DNA of 64,000 bases from Anaerolineaceae bacterium. GTDB lineage: Bacteria > Chloroflexota > Anaerolineae > Anaerolineales > Anaerolineaceae. Shown piece after piece: positions 55,474 to 64,000 of this stretch; within the stretch, counting starts at the first letter, position 1, and every line of letters begins with the position of its first letter. A program made the translations under genes and the position numbers. The stretch is from positions 372,001 through 436,000 of the forward strand of contig JAENZD010000002.1 in the NCBI GenBank assembly GCA_016841445.1, in the 5' to 3' direction. The notes beneath the pieces are model-generated. The model did no database searches and was not told the origin of the DNA. It saw only the letters and a list, made by a program, of their open reading frames with translations.

Positions 55474-56538
55474 ATGTCTGAAAAAGCAACCTCTGGACGT
55501 GAAGTTAGGCTGACAACCCTTTCAAGCTGTGCGGGTTGAGCGTCCAAACTACGCGCGGAAGCGCTGGCGCAGGTTCTGCAGCCAATCTCAGAAATCTACC
55601 GTGACCTGGAAGCCCCAGACCTGATCATCGGGATGGAAAAGCCCGATGATGCTGCCGTGTGGCGGTTGGGTGATGGCCGTGCTTTGGTCATGACCACTGA
55701 CTTTTTCACACCGGTTGTTGATGATGCATATGACTACGGCGCGATTGCGGCTGCGAATAGCCTTTCAGACGTTTATGCCATGGGCGCCACGCCGTTTATG
55801 GCATTGACAGTCGCCGCGCTGCCCCCTGACCTGGACACCAATATCTCACAGAAGATCATCCGCGGGCTGACTGAGAAAGCACTCGAAGCGAATACGATCA
55901 TTGCAGGGGGCCATACCATCCAGGATAAGGAACCCAAAATTGGCCTGGTTGCCATCGGTTTTGCGGACGAGAATGCCTTACTGCGTAAGGATGGATTGAA
56001 GCCAGGTGACCGGTTGGTCATCACCAAACCCCTTGGTTTCGGCGTGACCACCACTGCTCTAAAACAACAGAAAGCACCTCCTGAGGATATCAGGGAGGTC
56101 GTGGACTGGATGAAACGTCTTAACAAGGGCAGTGCAGAACTGGCCATCCAGTTCCATCTACAAGCCGCTACGGATATAACCGGGTTCAGCTTGTTAGGGC
56201 ATGCCTGGGAGATGGCGGTGGGTGCAAAACTTGGGATGAAAATTTCCTTTAAGGATATCCCGCTGGTTTCATGCGCAAAAAAGCATGCTGAGGCCTGGCG
56301 GTTTCCAGGCGGTGCCTTCGATAATAAGCTCTATTACAGTCAATTTGTCGATTTTGATGAGTCGATCCGCGAAGAATACCAGATGCTGCTTTTTGACCCC
56401 CAGACCAGCGGCGGGCTGCTACTGGGTGTTCCGGAAGCTGATCTGGATCCCTTCTTGGCTGAAGCGAAAAGACGAAACGAACCTGCCTGGGTGATTGGTG
56501 AGGTGATCGAGGATGAAAAGATCCTCATTACCCCATGA
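55474..56538 (+). CDS. selD: Selenide, water dikinase with selenocysteine at the active site
   Basis: A 354-residue SelD with one in-frame TGA (55537-55539, codon 22). N-terminal sequence: REVRLTTLSSCAG-U-ASKLRAEAL, aligned with E. coli GAGCGCK so that U takes the place of catalytic Cys17 and Lys25 that of Lys20. The remainder is typical: PDDAAVWRLGDGRALVMTTDFFTPVVDD, AAANSLSDVYAMGA, IAGGHTIQDKEP, DITGFSLLGHAWEM, FDPQTSGGLLLGV. It makes selenophosphate from selenide and ATP. Standard gene calling would start at ATG 55633 and lose the active site. TATAAT at 55434-55439 is a likely -10. Confidence 0.95.
55540..55570 (+). promoter_or_regulatory. Bacterial SECIS-like hairpin directly after the selD UGA
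   Basis: Right behind the TGA, GCGTC (55540-55544) can pair with GGCGC (55566-55570, one G-U). Above an asymmetric internal loop, GCGC (55553-55556) pairs with GCGC (55561-55564) around a GGAA loop. The loop guanine lies 18 bases after the UGA, in the range known for SelB-binding hairpins. Confidence 0.65.
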
Positions 56539-57707: not shown

Positions 57708-57733
57708 AAGAGGCAGAACCTATGCCTCTTTTC
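57708..57733 (+). terminator. Terminator of the CAP gene, overlapping the convergent gene's end
   Basis: AAGAGGCA / TGCCTCTT, perfect 8-base stem, 7-base loop, then TTCCC. It covers the stop of the minus-strand gene at 57720 and might serve both directions. Confidence 0.65.
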
Positions 57734-58811
57734 CCTCAATATACCCCTGCAATGTCTTGCCAGGATAGTAATGCTCAAATGCTGATTGGACATTGCCTTT
57801 TGTGACTGCCATGTTGGCATAGAACACCACACCAGGAATTTTTGCGCCATTGAGCAGGTTGACCATCTGGCTCAGGCACCATTTTGCTGGTGTAATGGAG
57901 GAATAGGCTGCAGTCCCTACAATGTCACCATCATAAATACCTCTAAGGACAGGTTTGTCCTGGTCTATTGAAGTAAGGAGGATATCGCGTCTATCCTTTT
58001 CAACTTTTGATTGCAGCATGCCGAGTGTTGCTGCAGAATACAAACCCCAAGCCCCAAGCATATCAGGATGATCTTTGATCGCACCATTAAAGACCTCAAA
58101 ATGTTCTTCTGTAGATACCCCGGTTAGCGCAACGATCTCTATATCAGGGTATTTCTTGAACACATCAATGAAACCTTTTGCCCTTGTTACTGCGTTGGGG
58201 TGCATAAATGGCAGGGTCTGATAAATAATAACGCCTTTCATTTTCTTGCCTTCTGCTAATATTGCTTCTTCAAGCAGTTCGGCTGCGATTTTTCCTTGCT
58301 CGACAGTATCCGAAATGACAACAGCATCAACATTTCCAGCAAGCGGTGCGTTGAGCGTGACCACCGGTATGTTAGCTTCCTCAAGTGCATCCAGGGCTGT
58401 TTTGACACCTGTAAAATCACACGGTCCGAGGATCACCCCATCGACACCTTGGTGGATCCACTGAACAACCGCCTGATCTTGAGCTTCCTGGTCGTAGTTT
58501 GCGTTATGGACAAGGAGTTCGACACCCGCTTCTTCCGCTGCGTTTTTCATGCTCTCCAGCATCATGGTGCCAACTTCATCCAGTGTGCAGTAGAGTGAAA
58601 AACCAAGCGTGTATTTATGGTTTGCCCTGGGTATTTCTGTCGTCATGTCGTCAGGGACTTTCACAGCCCCGACTGATCTGATGGTCACATCGCATTCAAC
58701 GCCGGTTTTTTTATACCAGCTATTCAAGTCAAATTTCTTATCCTGATCCCCTACATAAATAAAATCTGCCTGATTTGCATTCATAACAGGTTTGTCATCT
58801 GAGTTTTTCAT
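57720..58811 (-). CDS. Periplasmic-binding-fold (sugar-type) protein without signal peptide
   Basis: About 363 residues. Residues 90-350 match the type 1 periplasmic binding fold of ribose/LacI type: YTLGFSLYCTLDEVGTMMLESMKNAAEEAGVELLVHNANYDQ, QWIHQGVDGVILGPCD, IPVVTLNAPLAGN and VISDTVEQGKIAAELL. There is no signal peptide, lipobox or helix-turn-helix; instead about 70 unusual residues lead it (NQADFIYVGDQDKKFDLNSWY). It could be a cytosolic sensor, perhaps of an orphan system; no ABC permease is near. ATG 58811 follows GAGGAG. Confidence 0.8.
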   Translation of the reverse strand: MKNSDDKPVMNANQADFIYVGDQDKKFDLNSWYKKTGVECDVTIRSVGAVKVPDDMTTEIPRANHKYTLGFSLYCTLDEVGTMMLESMKNAAEEAGVELLVHNANYDQEAQDQAVVQWIHQGVDGVILGPCDFTGVKTALDALEEANIPVVTLNAPLAGNVDAVVISDTVEQGKIAAELLEEAILAEGKKMKGVIIYQTLPFMHPNAVTRAKGFIDVFKKYPDIEIVALTGVSTEEHFEVFNGAIKDHPDMLGAWGLYSAATLGMLQSKVEKDRRDILLTSIDQDKPVLRGIYDGDIVGTAAYSSITPAKWCLSQMVNLLNGAKIPGVVFYANMAVTKGNVQSAFEHYYPGKTLQGYIEGKEA

Positions 58812-58898
58812 GTCTTGCTCCTCGTTTATCCAATTCAATAACATGATTTTTGGTCACCATGGTTGCGTTAACAACACAGGTGACAGGGCGGCGGTGTT

Positions 58899-61475
58899 TT
58901 AAATCACCTGCAGTACTGACCCCTCGAGCGTCTTTTCAACCTCGATCCGTGTAGGAAAGGCTTCTTTGAGCTCCTCAAGGTGAGTGATCACCAGGATCTT
59001 CTCGAAGTCACCTCTGACCAGGTTGATCGCTTCCACCAACCGCTGGCGTCCCTGGGCATCCTGACTGCCAAATCCCTCATCGATCACCAGGGTTTGCAAC
59101 CGGGCACCGGCGCGCCTGGCTAAAATTTCTGAGAGCGCCAAACGGATAGCAAAATTGACCCGGAAAGCTTCGCCGCCGGAGTACATCTCATAATCCCTTA
59201 CCCCTACACTGTCGCTGATCACCAGGTCAAGGGTTTCTTTCTGATCTTCCCGGCTGGCGTCTTTATACTCACGCTGGGTTTCGAAACGTAAAGACATCCT
59301 CCCGTTCGTCAGGCGGGAGAGCAGGTTGTTGGCGGTCTCTTCAATCTCCGGGAGGGCTTGCTCGATCAATAAAGCTGGAATGCCGTCTTTGCCAAAGGCA
59401 CGTTCAAGCTGCTTGAGATCGGCAATATGAAGCGTCAGGTTTTCCCGTTCTTCAAGCAGTTCCGCTTTACGTTTTTCTTGATCCCTCAGCGCATTTACTT
59501 GCTGTTCGGCACCGCCCACTTCCCTACGGAGGATGTTCTCTTTCTCCTGGATGTCATAGAAATCATTTTCTTCTTTTTTCAGGTCAGGGAATTCAACTTC
59601 TGTAGCGGCCATTTTTGCCGCAGCGTCTTCAAAAGCGTTTGACTGCTTCTTGATGAGTCCTGATTTTTCGGATTCCTGGTTAATTAGATCATCGATCTCG
59701 CGTTCAACTGGTACCAGTGAAGCCCGGGCTTGTTTTATCTCCAACAAATCCTGTTCAGCCTTGCGGCCTTCTTTTTCAGCTTGGCGCAGTTTCTCGTGAG
59801 CTTTCAGGTCATACCCAAGGGATTCCATGTCCAGCTTAATCGCATCCAACTGCTGGCGCGCTTCAAGAGCGAACAACGCTTTTGCCAGGACCTCGGAGAC
59901 CTCTTCTAACCGGGGTGCACCTTCTGACTCCCATGATTTTCTGTTCTCTTCAAGAGAAGCCAATTTATTGCTGATCTGGTCGACTTTTTGGTTGGCCTCT
60001 CGCAGTTCCCGATCAGCGCTTTTGAGATTAGCCAGTTCTGCGCCGAGCTTCTGAAGTTCGGTTTCAAAGTTCTGCAGCAGATCGCTGTTGACCCTGTATT
60101 TTTCGCGCATTGACTCAAGCTCATCGTTCAATTGGTCAAGTAACCCCGCTCTGTGTTCCTGGGTTAATGGTTGGCCGCAAACCGGGCATTCCGCTTCTTC
60201 AGTGCCTTTGAGCTGGTCAATTCGATTGGTGAGCTTCTTGCCCTCATCAGCCAAGCGAGGATTTTCCGCTTTGGCGTTTGCGAACATCTCCTGGCGCTGA
60301 CGGATTTCTTCGTCTAATGCTTCACGTCGTTCAATTTTTCTTTGGGCATTTTTGATGGCTGCCTGGGCATCCGAAATTTGTGCTTGAAGCCCCTCTACCT
60401 CAGCAAGAGCCTGGGTGATTTCAGATTTTTGTGCTTCCAGCGTTTTCTTTTCCTGCTGCAATCGTGCTTCTTCTGCATGGATGGTTTGCAAAGGCCCCTG
60501 GCGCAGTGCTTCATGTTGGCGGTAGGCTTCTGCCAATTCCTCCATATTGCTGAGCTCTTCGCGAGCCTGCTGCCAATCCTGGTAAGCTTTTTCAACCGCA
60601 TCGGCCTCTGCCAGGGTTTCTAAATAACCGGATTTTTCTTTTTGGCGTTCTTCAAGGGTCTCAAGGATGCGGTTTTGATCCTGCCGAGTGCTTTCCAGCT
60701 GTGAACGGAGGGTTTCCACCAATTTTCGCTGTTCTTCAAGGGACGCATGCAAGCGCTGTACGGACTCAAGGATCTTTGCCTGTGATTTTCGCTGTTCCTC
60801 CAGGCCTTCTAAACGTTCTTTCAATGCGGCCAGGTGTTTTTTGCGTTCCGGGCCCTCATCCAGCTCAGCCTGGATCTCTGCCAGGCGGCCATCCAATGCT
60901 TTGACATCTTTTTCGACCTCTCGCCGGCGCATGCCCGCGGTTTCACGGTAGCTTTCCCATACTTCAAGCCCCAGGATGTTGCTCAGGATGCGCTTGCGTT
61001 CAGCAGGACGAGCTGTTGCAAATTGATCAGCCTTGCCCTGCAGGAAAAACGAGGCATTGGTGAAGGTTTCAAAATCCATCCGCAGAGTGTTTTCGATCTT
61101 ACTATCCGTTTCCCGCAGGGTTCTTTCCGTGAGGGGCTTCCAGCGGCCTTCTTCCCCGGGGATATTGGCGCGAATAAAGAATTCTACAGAGGACGTTTTG
61201 CCGCGCGGGTTGGTGCGCATGACGCGGTAGCGGTTGCCTTCGTAATCAAAGTCGAGCGTTACTTCTGCGGCTTCAACCTGCGGATTATTATTGATGACTG
61301 ATTCATCCCGCTTGCGTGCCTGGCCAAATAAAGCCCAGGTTATCGCGTCCAAAACAGAGGATTTGCCAGCCCCGTTCTGCCCGGAGATACAGGCCAGGTC
61401 AAAGCCGGTGAAATCCAGTTCGACTGGCTTGCGGTAGGAGAGAAAGCCTTCGATCTTAAGTTTGACAGGGATCAT
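58899..61475 (-). CDS. Rad50/SbcC-like SMC-family ATPase
   Basis: An 858-residue protein. N-terminal ATPase half: IPVKLKIEGFLSYRKPVELDF with Walker A ISGQNGAGKSSVLDAITWALFGQ. Long coiled coils (about 170-425 and 455-700) surround the zinc hook AECPVCGQPL (about residue 430). The C-terminal half holds the signature YSGGEAFRVNFAIRLALSEIL and Walker B LQTLVIDEGFGSQD. It is shorter than E. coli SbcC, near archaeal Rad50 in size. It is the last gene of an operon with herA and nurA, one base after herA. No Mre11/SbcD gene is in the window. Confidence 0.92.
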   Translation of the reverse strand: MIPVKLKIEGFLSYRKPVELDFTGFDLACISGQNGAGKSSVLDAITWALFGQARKRDESVINNNPQVEAAEVTLDFDYEGNRYRVMRTNPRGKTSSVEFFIRANIPGEEGRWKPLTERTLRETDSKIENTLRMDFETFTNASFFLQGKADQFATARPAERKRILSNILGLEVWESYRETAGMRRREVEKDVKALDGRLAEIQAELDEGPERKKHLAALKERLEGLEEQRKSQAKILESVQRLHASLEEQRKLVETLRSQLESTRQDQNRILETLEERQKEKSGYLETLAEADAVEKAYQDWQQAREELSNMEELAEAYRQHEALRQGPLQTIHAEEARLQQEKKTLEAQKSEITQALAEVEGLQAQISDAQAAIKNAQRKIERREALDEEIRQRQEMFANAKAENPRLADEGKKLTNRIDQLKGTEEAECPVCGQPLTQEHRAGLLDQLNDELESMREKYRVNSDLLQNFETELQKLGAELANLKSADRELREANQKVDQISNKLASLEENRKSWESEGAPRLEEVSEVLAKALFALEARQQLDAIKLDMESLGYDLKAHEKLRQAEKEGRKAEQDLLEIKQARASLVPVEREIDDLINQESEKSGLIKKQSNAFEDAAAKMAATEVEFPDLKKEENDFYDIQEKENILRREVGGAEQQVNALRDQEKRKAELLEERENLTLHIADLKQLERAFGKDGIPALLIEQALPEIEETANNLLSRLTNGRMSLRFETQREYKDASREDQKETLDLVISDSVGVRDYEMYSGGEAFRVNFAIRLALSEILARRAGARLQTLVIDEGFGSQDAQGRQRLVEAINLVRGDFEKILVITHLEELKEAFPTRIEVEKTLEGSVLQVI

Positions 61476-61476
61476 A

Positions 61477-63198
61477 TTAGAATCCTAATTCATCCATGAT
61501 TTGATCATTGCTGCGTTTTGGCTTATCTGCCTGGAGTTCTTCCCAAAAAGCGTCATCATAACGTCGGGAGCGAACCAATATCGGAATGGGAACACCCCAG
61601 CCCAGCATCAGGACTTCTTCCTTGGGCTGAAGGCGTGCCAGCATCCCGCGCAGGGCATCTCGTCCTGCCAGCCCGGTCAGCACTGATTGGATATCATCAG
61701 CGTCACCCAACCAGCCGGTGATGCGCGTTCCCAGCTGCGACATGACTTCATCGTAGATTTGGGAGGGGCGCTGGTCGATGATCAGCAGGGTCACGTAATA
61801 CTTGCGCATCTCGCGTGCGATGGTGCTGAAGGTGGTTTGGGAAGCCATCTCCCGGTTGAGGAGCTTATGGGCTTCTTCCACCACGATCACCAGTGGACGG
61901 GGTTCTTCCGCACCCTGGTGTCCGCTGCGGAAGTTGTTGGTTCGCCGCTCCCAAACGTCGCGGATGCGGCGAGTGAGCAGGTTGGAGACGAACAGGTAGT
62001 CCAGGTCGCTCTCGTGCTTACCGAAGGAGAGCACCACGTGCTGTCCGTTGTCAAGATTATTGATCATTTCCTGCAGGGCATTGCCGGCTGCTTCTTCTAC
62101 GATATATGGGGCATTGAAAAGCCGGCGCAGCTTGGAATGTAAGGCTTCTGCGGCTGCTGGATGCACGCCGGCACCATCTGCCCAGGCAGCCACGCTGTCC
62201 GGTGCGGGTGAGCGTTTGCCTTCATCATCGAAGATATAAGCGTTGACCCGCATGTGTTTGAATTCATGAAACCAATCATTGTGGAAGGTATTCCGCAGGG
62301 CTTCAAGCGTGGTGGGTGTGGTCTCCCGCAAGTTGAGCTCCTGTGAAAGCATGAGCACATCCTCGGGGGTGATATCCGATTCAGCGATCTCGAGGGTGTA
62401 ATCGGGGGTTGCACCACGAATGGTCGCACCCCGCCCCAAACCGACCATGCGCACTTTGGAGGCGAACTTACCTTTCAAGCCGGGTACCCGTAAGCCGGTA
62501 TCAGAGGCGGTGTCATCAGGCCCGTATTCGTTGTGCATGTCAAAGATCAGAACGGAGGTTTTTCCTCGCTGGATCAGCCCAGCCAGGATCACGCGGGTCA
62601 GGAAGGATTTGCCGGTGCCGGTTGCACCGAAGATGCCTGCTGAGCGCTGGACCAGTTTATCGAGATCGACGCACACCGGGTGTCTGCCTTCGATGGTATT
62701 GCCAATCCTGAAGAAGCCTCTCTCCCCTTCCTTCCCGAAGATCTCTGCGATATCACCGGCATTTGCCAAACGTACCTGGGCGTGGTGTTGGGGTACCGTC
62801 TTGACCGGTTCTGGGCGGATTTGCTCTTCAAGCACTTTCTGGAACCAGGCATTATAAGCCGGATCATCCGGTTCAGGACCGCGCTCCATCATCAGCGCGG
62901 TTAAGATCTCAAGGTTGGTATAGAGGGTTTGCCCATGCAGCAGCTTGGAGAGGTGCACTGGCAGGCGGATTTCACTTTGCTCATCGGCGAAGCGCGGGTC
63001 AGTTGACCCTAAAAACAGGTCAGTGACAAGGCCGTAAAACAGCCAGCCCCCGCTCTCTACCACCACAAAAGCACCTTCCTGGACGGTTTGAGCCGGGACG
63101 GACAGCCGGGCTTGCAGGTTGGCTTTGAGCCCGCCGCCCACAATATAGCCGATGGGGCCTGTGTTACTTTGAGGGTTATGATTGGTTTGTTCACTCAT
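61477..63198 (-). CDS. herA: HerA-type DNA translocase (FtsK/HerA ATPase)
   Basis: A 573-residue protein. Residues about 1-120 are a HAS-barrel (IGYIVGGGLKANLQARLSVPAQTVQEGAFVVVE), followed by the RecA-like core: Walker A GIFGATGTGKSFLTRVILAGL (about 191-211), VLIFDMHNEYG, Walker B PLVIVVEEAHKLLN and sensor LLIIDQRPSQI. HerA forms a hexameric pump that works with the nuclease NurA in end resection. Its neighbours are nurA, a HAS-barrel protein and a Rad50-like gene. Confidence 0.92.
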   Translation of the reverse strand: MSEQTNHNPQSNTGPIGYIVGGGLKANLQARLSVPAQTVQEGAFVVVESGGWLFYGLVTDLFLGSTDPRFADEQSEIRLPVHLSKLLHGQTLYTNLEILTALMMERGPEPDDPAYNAWFQKVLEEQIRPEPVKTVPQHHAQVRLANAGDIAEIFGKEGERGFFRIGNTIEGRHPVCVDLDKLVQRSAGIFGATGTGKSFLTRVILAGLIQRGKTSVLIFDMHNEYGPDDTASDTGLRVPGLKGKFASKVRMVGLGRGATIRGATPDYTLEIAESDITPEDVLMLSQELNLRETTPTTLEALRNTFHNDWFHEFKHMRVNAYIFDDEGKRSPAPDSVAAWADGAGVHPAAAEALHSKLRRLFNAPYIVEEAAGNALQEMINNLDNGQHVVLSFGKHESDLDYLFVSNLLTRRIRDVWERRTNNFRSGHQGAEEPRPLVIVVEEAHKLLNREMASQTTFSTIAREMRKYYVTLLIIDQRPSQIYDEVMSQLGTRITGWLGDADDIQSVLTGLAGRDALRGMLARLQPKEEVLMLGWGVPIPILVRSRRYDDAFWEELQADKPKRSNDQIMDELGF

Positions 63199-63226
63199 GA
63201 TTTTCGCCGTCTCTTATAATGTAGGG

Positions 63227-63823
63227 TTATATCTCACTGACTGCGCCGAGAATGTCCATCAGTTGCTGGTAGTCATCCCGCATGAGGATGATCAGCTCCT
63301 GCAGGGCACGTTCAACCCAATCCGAGTTTCCTGCCTCATCCTGTGCTTTTTTAGCCTGGATCAGGTGGGCAGCCAGGAGTTCCTCGACCGGTTTATCCCG
63401 ATCCCTCAGGATTTGCCTGAAGTAGCCAAACCTTCCGCCGCTGGTAAAGCGCACCACTTCCTCAGATGTGCACAGGAAGATCGCGTCCAGGCTGAGGGGC
63501 GGCCGGGGCGGCAGCAGGTGTGTGATCTGCCCGTCCTGTTCATACCCTAACGCCAGCACGCCGATTTCAACCGGCACATTGCGGTTTTGGCGGTTATCCT
63601 GCAGCACTTCCTCCGGCACTTCGGCCGCGGTGATCAGCTGTCGTACCAGCCCGTCATCATCAATGTGGATATCATAGATCAGCCCGTAGACCTGGGTGTT
63701 ATCTGCCAGCGGCACACGCACCAGCGCGCCAAAACTGGGCGCGTCGAGCTGGTTCACCCGGCAGCCGACCACAAAACCTGTGGTTCCGGAGCGTAATAAG
63801 CGTCCCATTGCTATTTCGTTCAT
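63227..63823 (-). CDS. Stand-alone HAS-barrel protein of the HerA-NurA operon
   Basis: A 198-residue protein. Its first 110 residues have the HAS-barrel pattern seen at the start of HerA: MGRLLRSGTTGFVVGCRVNQLDAPSFGALVRVPL and VYGLIYDIHIDDDGLVRQLI. The rest is helical (EELLAAHLIQAKKAQDEAG...LMRDDYQQLMDIL) and lacks an ATPase. It could be an adaptor between NurA and HerA. Its ATG overlaps the nurA stop (ATGA), and herA starts 28 bases after it. AGG lies before the ATG. HAS-barrel identity is moderately sure; function is inferred from place. Confidence 0.7.
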   Translation of the reverse strand: MNEIAMGRLLRSGTTGFVVGCRVNQLDAPSFGALVRVPLADNTQVYGLIYDIHIDDDGLVRQLITAAEVPEEVLQDNRQNRNVPVEIGVLALGYEQDGQITHLLPPRPPLSLDAIFLCTSEEVVRFTSGGRFGYFRQILRDRDKPVEELLAAHLIQAKKAQDEAGNSDWVERALQELIILMRDDYQQLMDILGAVSEI

Positions 63824-64000
63824 CCCTCATACCTCGTTTTCCCGGTGGGTAAGTCTTTATGATACTGCTTATTTGATTTTTCATCGACGGGGATCCCCCG
63901 GCGTTCGAATTCTGTCATGATCATCGCCTCCACATGTTCGTGCTCAGCCAGGCTCACGACAGCAACCTCATGTGCCCTGTGGAGGATATAGGGGTAGGGG
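63820..64000 (-). CDS. nurA: NurA-domain nuclease, C-terminal end only
   Basis: The frame from the window edge gives 59 residues: YPYILHRAHEVAVVSLAEHE, then VEAMIMTEFERRGIPVDEKS and NKQYHKDLPTGKTRYEG-stop. The HEVAVVS strand, the RRGIPVDEKSNKQYHK end and the place beside herA match the C-terminus of NurA 5'-3' nucleases. The catalytic part lies outside the window. The stop overlaps the next ATG. Confidence 0.75.
   Translation of the reverse strand, partial: PYPYILHRAHEVAVVSLAEHEHVEAMIMTEFERRGIPVDEKSNKQYHKDLPTGKTRYEG

Follow-up and report, generated by a model that had tools for sequence, protein, structure and literature searches.

A stand-alone HAS-barrel protein encoded between nurA and herA recurs across Chloroflexota and is a candidate third subunit of the NurA–HerA nuclease

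The window, a 64,000-nucleotide stretch of DNA from an Anaerolineaceae bacterium, carries at its far end a minus-strand run of four genes in the order nurA, a gene for a 198-aa HAS protein, herA and rad50.

63820–64000, minus strand: 3' end of nurA (394 aa); the rest of the gene, ~1.0 kb, lies beyond the window and reaches C6:437004
63227–63823, minus strand: stand-alone predicted HAS-barrel protein, 198 aa (AF2 model, Foldseek, VIA-align, and Pfam on family members)
61477–63198, minus strand: herA, 573 aa (PF01935, AF2 model and Walker motifs)
58899–61475, minus strand: rad50/sbcC, 858 aa (Pfam domains and motifs)

These genes are tightly packed, as the original prediction had described, with a 4-nt overlap between nurA and the HAS gene, a spacing of 28 nt between the HAS gene and herA and of 1 nt between herA and rad50. 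Only 181 bases of nurA lie inside the window and the full ORF was read from the DNA beyond the edge; its product matches PF09376 over residues 85–350 (60.2 bits, cut-off 21), showing that the upstream nuclease is indeed NurA and not a member of another family, and contains the stretches DGS (residue 90), DGPL (177) and GYVD (215), which we take to be catalytic. HerA scored 103.8 bits against PF01935 (DUF87 core; cut-off 23.2) and 21.1 bits against HerA_C (PF05872), just under the cut-off of 22, and has a Walker A motif, GATGTGKS, at 191 and a Walker B motif, VVEEAH, at 439. In Rad50, the AAA_23, Rad50_zn_hook and SbcC_Walker_B domains were all above the Pfam cut-off, and Walker A, a zinc-hook CPVC at 430, the SGGE signature and Walker B are present; it scored 279.4 against TIGR00618 (sbcc), under the cut-off of 478.5, and is the sole convincing SbcC-like protein of the genome. 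When the contig was followed past position 64000, no mre11/sbcD gene was found beside nurA in that DNA, and the SbcD of this genome (110.8 bits, cut-off 77.65) proved to be encoded on the same contig, ~57 kb beyond nurA. Mre11 is thus outside the window, as had been noted, but neither of the alternatives then offered, a place upstream of nurA or absence, describes its position. A periplasmic-binding-protein gene downstream (57720–58844) was considered as a fifth member of the operon and rejected, as it had no relative among the ORFs of 80 loci.

The 198-aa protein and HerA were each modelled with AF2 as single chains. The model of the smaller protein (pLDDT 80.5, pTM 0.76) consists of a barrel at residues ~6–102, a conserved LPPRPPLSLD link (~103–113) and C-terminal helices (120–195), and a motif scan of the protein found no P-loop. 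Its best structural matches were the docking barrels of HerA (best Foldseek E 8.3e-6), with Z values of up to 12.9 against HerA N-terminal barrels and of 9.1 at best against the barrels of F1/V-type ATPases. By sequence, it scored 12.6 bits (E 0.15) against the Pfam HAS-barrel (PF09378), under the cut-off of 25.2, and the same Pfam model was found at E<=0.1 in 8 of 18 family members, the best at 3.9e-10. Alignment by hhalign of residues 4–187 with residues 14–215 of HerA gave a weak match (P 5.5e-4, probability 30%; 23% with a second profile), and a sequence-profile search of solved structures returned only kinases, at E 1.3. On its predicted fold, the protein is therefore a HAS barrel without an ATPase, as originally proposed; the barrel is of the HerA type and is followed by a helical tail. 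Pfam, the AF2 model and structure comparison agree in placing NurA, this protein, HerA and Rad50 in one run. It shares the fold of the HerA N-terminal domain, but has a gene of its own and carries C-terminal helices in place of the ATPase domain. Between residues 51 and 90 the 10-residue mean confidence of the model is 57 to 75, and the segment equivalent to the NurA-contacting helix of HerA (~59–79) falls in this low-confidence part. The presumed NurA-binding segment showed no clear excess of conservation, stretch 55–86 compared with the rest giving 0.78/0.73 (A3), 0.54/0.55 (A1) and 0.39/0.42 (A4).

A barrel of this type is also predicted at the N-terminus of HerA itself. It scored 15.6 bits by Pfam, under the cut-off of 25.2, and is present by predicted fold, the AF2 model of HerA aligning to HerA structures from residue 9–15 to about 545–573, and its strands and helices come in the order seen in the 198-aa protein. 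Because HerA appears to retain its own barrel, with this same order of elements, the stand-alone protein would be an addition to it and not a replacement; the possibility that it substitutes for a barrel missing from HerA was ruled out on the same predicted fold.

We surveyed the occurrence of these genes in 251 Chloroflexota genomes: NurA and HAS were found together in 146, NurA only in 14, HAS only in two and neither in 89. HAS is thus present in 146/160 genomes with NurA compared with 2/91 without, as raw counts with kinship not corrected for. In 79 of 80 loci NurA lies upstream of HAS on the same strand, at a distance of <=739 nt and, in 67, of <=150 nt; the lone exception is a locus cut by a contig end. 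A further 100 loci were fetched around NurA or HAS. All 52 that contain HerA have HAS <=3 kb upstream of herA, HAS lies downstream of NurA within 3 kb in 57 of the 58 that hold both, and all five genes (SbcD, Rad50, NurA, HAS and HerA) are present in 25. Of 25 genomes tested in which NurA has no adjoining HAS, 19 have matches to HAS and HerA together at another site, <300 bases from each other; a further 12 genomes have HAS behind NurA, with HerA at a different location. After splitting of the genes, HAS thus keeps with NurA in some genomes and with HerA in others. These data show that the stand-alone HAS protein travels with NurA and HerA across Chloroflexota and is no oddity; the original prediction had called it unusual, which is true only in that it is undescribed in the literature searched. 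The proposed gene order recurs for nurA–HAS–herA, whereas the rad50 link, genuine beside herA here, is local: of the 80 loci as fetched, some of which are cut by contig ends, 12 contain rad50, and it occurs in only two of 26 class relatives, both belonging to the same genus. Rad50 was therefore rejected as a conserved member of the operon. In other Chloroflexota, Mre11/SbcD lies inside the operon. In Longilinea arvoryzae, a cultured relative, nurA, HAS and herA are near neighbours.

Outside Chloroflexota, the HAS search covered plasmid and phage records. Three haloarchaeal plasmids have, as annotated, the same five-gene order as the Chloroflexota loci, and HAS is labelled ‘hypothetical’ on all four plasmid records that hold it. 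Phage records gave no match with the diverged HAS of one locus (L137) as the query, and in viral contigs 34 pattern matches included no relatives.

Known systems resemble this locus in part. TdpAB and the HerA–DUF4297 and HerA–SIR2 complexes likewise pair a HerA-type motor with an effector and dock through the HAS ring, but here the effector is NurA and a separate HAS protein is added. The HerA–NurA–Mre11–Rad50 operon of Sulfolobus, Pyrococcus and Thermococcus has the same four protein families in close packing; it differs from the present locus, where an extra stand-alone HAS gene lies between nurA and herA and Mre11/SbcD is unlinked. Classical archaeal operons are not known to have the HAS gene. 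The original prediction of an archaeal-style operon in a bacterium holds as regards the four families, but in the sections cited here nurA–herA is already in print for Deinococcus and Thermus, with a HAS barrel on HerA, as are SbcD and SbcC genes downstream of a herA homologue in Oceanithermus, the only genus for which these sections mention a Rad50/SbcC link (PMC9960219, PMC5448004). In Thermus, the nurA stop is described as overlapping the herA start (PMC5448004), leaving therefore no third gene in between, and on that account some NurA–HerA pairs would manage without a HAS protein. The published contacts place NurA on the HAS domains of HerA, the six barrels of the ring forming the docking platform for a NurA dimer in Deinococcus and Thermococcus, according to the sections cited (PMC9960219, PMC12977600). 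The open-access papers searched, a scope outside which two founding papers of 2004 fall, contained no report of a stand-alone HAS partner of NurA–HerA; within that literature the partner is what is new here, NurA–HerA in bacteria being already known.

The HerA-type fold, the retention by HerA of its own barrel, the co-occurrence and co-location with NurA and HerA, the gene order on plasmids and the published docking contacts together suggest that the HAS protein is a component of the nuclease, and we lean modestly towards its being a dedicated third subunit of a NurA–HerA DNA-end-processing nuclease, sitting where nuclease and motor meet, with Rad50 and the unlinked SbcD feeding it ends. The weak hhalign match to the HerA N-terminus points the same way by its P value, but its low probabilities count against this reading, as do the low model confidence and unremarkable conservation of the presumed NurA-binding segment, the lack of a correction for kinship in the co-occurrence counts, and the Thermus gene pair. 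The original prediction had suggested that the protein may be an adaptor. The same fold could serve a decoy or brake, which would block the docking face of NurA, or cap the ring of HAS barrels on HerA, and hold the nuclease away from the motor as long as no DNA end is engaged. A docking-domain fold lacking a motor would suit such a role, as would the 4-nt overlap with nurA, which would favour production jointly with the nuclease; however, where the genes have separated HAS is found beside either herA or nurA, which a subunit explains as simply, and we regard a brake as unlikely.

HerA–DUF4297 and HerA–SIR2 complexes act against phage, and NurA–HAS–HerA might similarly be a defence-type degrader of foreign dsDNA and not a repair machine. 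In keeping with this, PADLOC HerA models match HerA of the window (best E 1.6e-32), the haloarchaeal cassette of DL31 adjoins a helicase that matches Shango SngC at 895 bits, and Thermococcus HerA–NurA is reported to cleave both strands of dsDNA, with an antiviral role suggested by its authors in the section cited (PMC12977600). NCBIfam does not tell the two roles apart for this HerA, which was far under the cut-offs of both the anti-phage (70.2 of 800 and 62 of 850) and the repair models (89.6 of 800 and 60.4 of 970); none of its HerA models reached cut-off. However, HAS is a steady family trait in Chloroflexota, present for example in 6/6 sampled genomes of one family and 13/14 of another, unlike a patchy defence island, and PADLOC, run on the operon proteins with the other neighbours in the window read by eye, gave no match for the HAS protein or NurA of the window or for the metallophosphoesterase of DL31, and a defence function therefore seems improbable. 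That the protein is instead an independent DNA-binding or SSB-like factor, its barrel holding single strands from NurA with no HerA docking, is very improbable: it is a small β-barrel, and a HAS-homologous barrel of BrxHI is described, in the section cited, as a DNA-binding module (PMC12839542), but the structures that match it best are the docking barrels of HerA, and its occurrence follows that of NurA and HerA.

As a third subunit, the HAS protein would be a HerA-type barrel with a helical tail in place of the motor domain, which was either lost or never present. We infer that its binding partner would be NurA, the ring of HAS barrels on HerA, or both, that it would thereby join the platform of barrels on which NurA docks, and that it may stabilize or gate this docking and so couple the dsDNA pump to the nuclease. 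The operon Rad50 and unlinked SbcD would recognize or open broken ends and then hand these over to NurA–HAS–HerA. More speculatively, and here we are doubtful, NurA–HAS–HerA, in Chloroflexota as well as on certain haloarchaeal plasmids, could be an obligate three-part machine in which HAS forms or completes a mixed ring between nuclease and motor; this ring would resolve the 2-to-6 symmetry mismatch and control how the two strands are cut by NurA, with Mre11–Rad50 in a five-gene cassette common to bacteria and archaea.

The role of HerA–NurA at DNA ends is disputed, end resection being doubted by the Thermococcus authors in the section cited (PMC12977600). At ~200 aa the HAS protein is an easy target and, found in 146 of the 160 NurA-bearing Chloroflexota genomes sampled, it is a direct candidate for a part that may be missing, in these lineages, from reconstitutions with two proteins.

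The source genome comprises 3.35 Mb in eight contigs, and the window corresponds to bases 372001-436000 of contig C6. The original prediction of four tightly packed genes is borne out by the layout, as all four lie on the minus strand, the first two overlapping by 4 nt and the later genes being separated by gaps of 28 nt (198-aa gene to herA) and 1 nt (herA to rad50). These genes and their neighbours, the latter partly from the fetched locus L002, are as follows:

Beyond the window edge to 63820, minus strand: nurA, 394 aa
63823-63227, minus strand: the 198-aa gene (stand-alone HAS), second in order of transcription
63198-61477, minus strand: herA, third in order of transcription
61475-58899, minus strand: rad50, fourth in order of transcription
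57720-58844, minus strand: periplasmic-binding-protein-like gene (Peripla_BP_4), 54 nt downstream of rad50
L002 7343-10333, divergent, upstream of nurA: secreted-looking protein of 996 aa with a dockerin-like tail, as read from the sequence
L002 15848-19498, divergent from nurA: second large secreted-looking protein, likewise read from the sequence

Neither a signal peptide nor an HTH was apparent on reading the Peripla_BP_4 protein, and its gene had no relative among the ORFs in the best 80 of 248 loci of the genome scan. Further along, a SelD-like gene (55474-56538, plus strand), listed as an ORF only from 55633, reads from an ATG at 55474 through a TGA at 55537 to give SSCAG-U-ASKL, which we take to be the pattern of selenocysteine-containing selenophosphate synthetases.

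NurA matched PF09376 with 60.2 bits (Pfam cut-off 21) and HerA matched PF01935 with 103.8 bits (cut-off 23.2), with both Walker A and Walker B present, and HerA lay far under the cut-offs of every NCBIfam HerA model. Most of the chain of its AF2 model (pLDDT 74.7, pTM 0.70) aligned to HerA-type structures, with Z scores of 22.1 for TdpAB (8wfd_C), 20.7 for Sulfolobus HerA (4d2i_B; 423 residues, model 14-563) and 19.8 for Deinococcus HerA-NurA (7f6d_A). Rad50 exceeded the Pfam cut-offs for AAA_23, Rad50_zn_hook and SbcC_Walker_B and carries a CPVC hook and an SGGE signature, scoring below the TIGR00618 cut-off (279.4 of 478.5 bits).

The closest named relative of the 198-aa protein has 77% identity, the nearest sequences being from Brevefilum and other Anaerolineaceae (Chloroflexota). 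On sequence alone, the case for a HAS barrel is weak: the Pfam HAS-barrel model gave 12.6 bits, under its cut-off of 25.2, and no match was found in NCBIfam or PADLOC. Of 18 family members, eight matched the Pfam model at E<=0.1 (best 3.9e-10). The AF2 model (33 sequences; pLDDT 80.5, pTM 0.76) has strands at 8-12, 16-24, 34-38, 43-54, 82-96 and 99-101, with helices at 59-65 and 71-79 before strand 82-96 and more between 120 and 195. Nearly all of the best 50 Foldseek rows bore HerA, TdpAB or HerA-complex titles (best E 8.3e-6), and in VIA-align HerA-type barrels had Z from 12.9 down to 8.9 and took all of ranks 1-25, the top F1/V-type ATPase barrel reaching Z 9.1. The same order of elements is found in the modelled N-terminus of HerA from this operon (strands 15-23, 27-32, 44-49 and 52-65, helices 68-72 and 81-91, strand 92-105). 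Profile comparison aligned HAS 4-187 with HerA 14-215 (P 5.5e-4 at 30% probability; P 8.7e-4 at 23% with a second profile), of which the part beyond HAS 137 enters the HerA ATPase domain and is not relied on. Given these fold matches and the shared element order, the 198-aa protein is, by structure prediction, a motor-less HAS barrel of the HerA type, as had been proposed, and HerA keeps a barrel of its own.

Gene order was compared in relatives. The best 80 of 248 loci in the genome scan all bear Chloroflexota names (including Candidatus Aquidulcis), and 79 of them have NurA upstream of HAS in the same orientation, at 739 nt or less and in 67 cases at no more than 150 nt; in the one exception, L086, the DNA begins with the HAS gene. 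Downstream of HAS, 66 of these 80 carry HerA in the same orientation at distances of up to 2.6 kb (150 nt or less in 34); one has it reversed, and it was not seen in 13, some of which are cut by contig ends. A second set of 100 loci, fetched by place and centred on NurA or HAS, contained NurA in 90, HAS in 68 and HerA in 52. All 52 loci with HerA also had HAS, at no more than 3 kb upstream of herA (400 bases or less in 43); a herA standing alone would escape this set, which was built around NurA or HAS. Of the 58 loci having both NurA and HAS, 57 place HAS no more than 3 kb after NurA, and 16 HAS loci had no visible HerA and ten no visible NurA. All five genes, including SbcD and Rad50, share one strand in 25 of the 100 loci, ordered SbcD-Rad50-NurA-HAS-HerA in 18 and NurA-HAS-HerA-SbcD-Rad50 in seven. 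The gap between HAS and herA seems to be a recurrent insertion place in relatives, the seven ORFs scanned being unrelated genes:

L058 8540-9025: PDDEXK_3
L092 10002-10430: PDDEXK_3
L040 8598-10010: Fic
L055 10230-11054: TdeIII restriction enzyme
L071 8636-9085: 23S rRNA intervening-sequence protein
L078 8575-9999: DUF6056
L110 5713-6555: metallophosphoesterase

NurA adjoined neither HAS nor HerA in 32 of the 100 loci (Rad50 there in 22, SbcD in three), some of which, such as that of genome G076, may have their linkage masked by a contig end next to NurA. In 19 of 25 such genomes searched, HAS and HerA matches occurred together elsewhere, on the same strand and <300 bases apart; the remaining six (G092, G100, G132, G156, G164, G177) had no match, a weak one or a fragment for HAS, HerA or both. 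Seven further loci (L172-L177, L183) hold HAS with HerA, NurA being on another contig or far off, and at least three of them (G037, G053, G162) are at contig ends and may reflect broken assemblies. Conversely, HAS follows NurA with HerA elsewhere in 12 genomes (G117, G221, G118, G122, G088, G034, G192, G174, G190, G216, G094 and G193, the last with HerA ~9 kb away). NurA and HAS are ~5 kb apart in G150, and neither partner was found in the HAS stretch of G166, G214 or G011.

Across 251 phylum genomes, HAS was detected in 95 by single-sequence search, in 100 with an 18-row profile and in 148 with a 23-row profile including diverged members, and NurA (PF09376) in 160. NurA and HAS occurred together in 146, NurA only in 14, HAS only in two (G009, G142) and neither in 89; the Fisher p of 6e-50 ignores relatedness and is not readable as a probability. 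Seven of the NurA-only genomes (G003, G006, G013, G173, G197, G245, G250) had a weak NurA match (E 5.7e-12 to 9.8e-4). The 23-row profile holds diverged HAS genes first spotted just after nurA, which biases it toward co-occurrence; it also found HAS at sites not adjoining NurA.

Mre11, it had been suggested, could lie upstream of nurA or be missing; a TIGR00619 search of the genome instead gave an unlinked SbcD, the only one above cut-off (C6:494063-494851; 110.8 bits vs 77.65), on the same strand as nurA and ~57 kb beyond it. One other TIGR00619 match, elsewhere, was weak (24.1 bits), and TIGR00618 matched the operon Rad50 and one other protein (18.5 bits); the operon Rad50 is presumably the partner of the unlinked SbcD. 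Both Rad50 and SbcD occur in 26 of 26 class relatives. As Rad50 adjoins HAS in only two of these 26, both of the same genus, and lies within the fetched DNA of 12 of the best 80 of 248 loci, some cut by contig ends, the placement of rad50 here is a local arrangement.

Outside the phylum, the window HAS had no real match among plasmid records (one at E 0.4). The diverged HAS of L137, searched against 72,556 plasmid records, matched four haloarchaeal plasmids (E 3e-17, 2e-17, 4e-15 and 8e-9) and, at chance level, Embleya (E 0.3). Three of these plasmids, from halophilic archaeon DL31, Natrinema zhouii and Halobaculum marinum, are annotated with a metallophosphoesterase, followed by an SMC ATPase, NurA, the HAS gene (as 'hypothetical protein') and a DUF87 or ATP-binding protein, the first two being, by annotation and place, putative Mre11 and Rad50. 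The Halorussus salilacus record ends with the HAS and ATP-binding genes and has its NurA match just past the start. Upstream of the DL31 cassette (L222 1122-11306) is a helicase that matches Shango SngC at 895 bits, and an annotated DEAD/DEAH helicase takes the equivalent place on the Natrinema plasmid. A defence context is possible for the haloarchaeal cassette. For the UCYN-A1 group, a comparison of cyanobacteria names both a 'HAS barrel domain protein' and a 'NurA domain-containing protein' (PMC12234771).

Bacterial NurA-HerA is already known from Deinococcus-Thermus, and in Oceanithermus the herA homolog is followed downstream by homologs of SbcD and SbcC (PMC9960219, PMC5448004). Titles and abstract openings among the matches listed in the open-access literature, a set without the two founding 2004 papers, mention no stand-alone HAS partner, which would thus be a new addition to the known bacterial system, with priority not settled. 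In Deinococcus, the ring of HerA HAS barrels is described as the dock for the NurA dimer, via acidic HerA residues (PMC9960219), and in Thermococcus docking is ascribed to the first helix of the HAS domain and the loop before it (PMC12977600). The segment of our HAS protein matching this NurA-contacting helix has low model confidence and shows no clear excess of conservation over the remainder of the protein. Given its docking fold, its place between nurA and herA and its staying with either when the two are split, the stand-alone HAS protein is most simply a subunit of the NurA-HerA junction, to which we infer that it binds.
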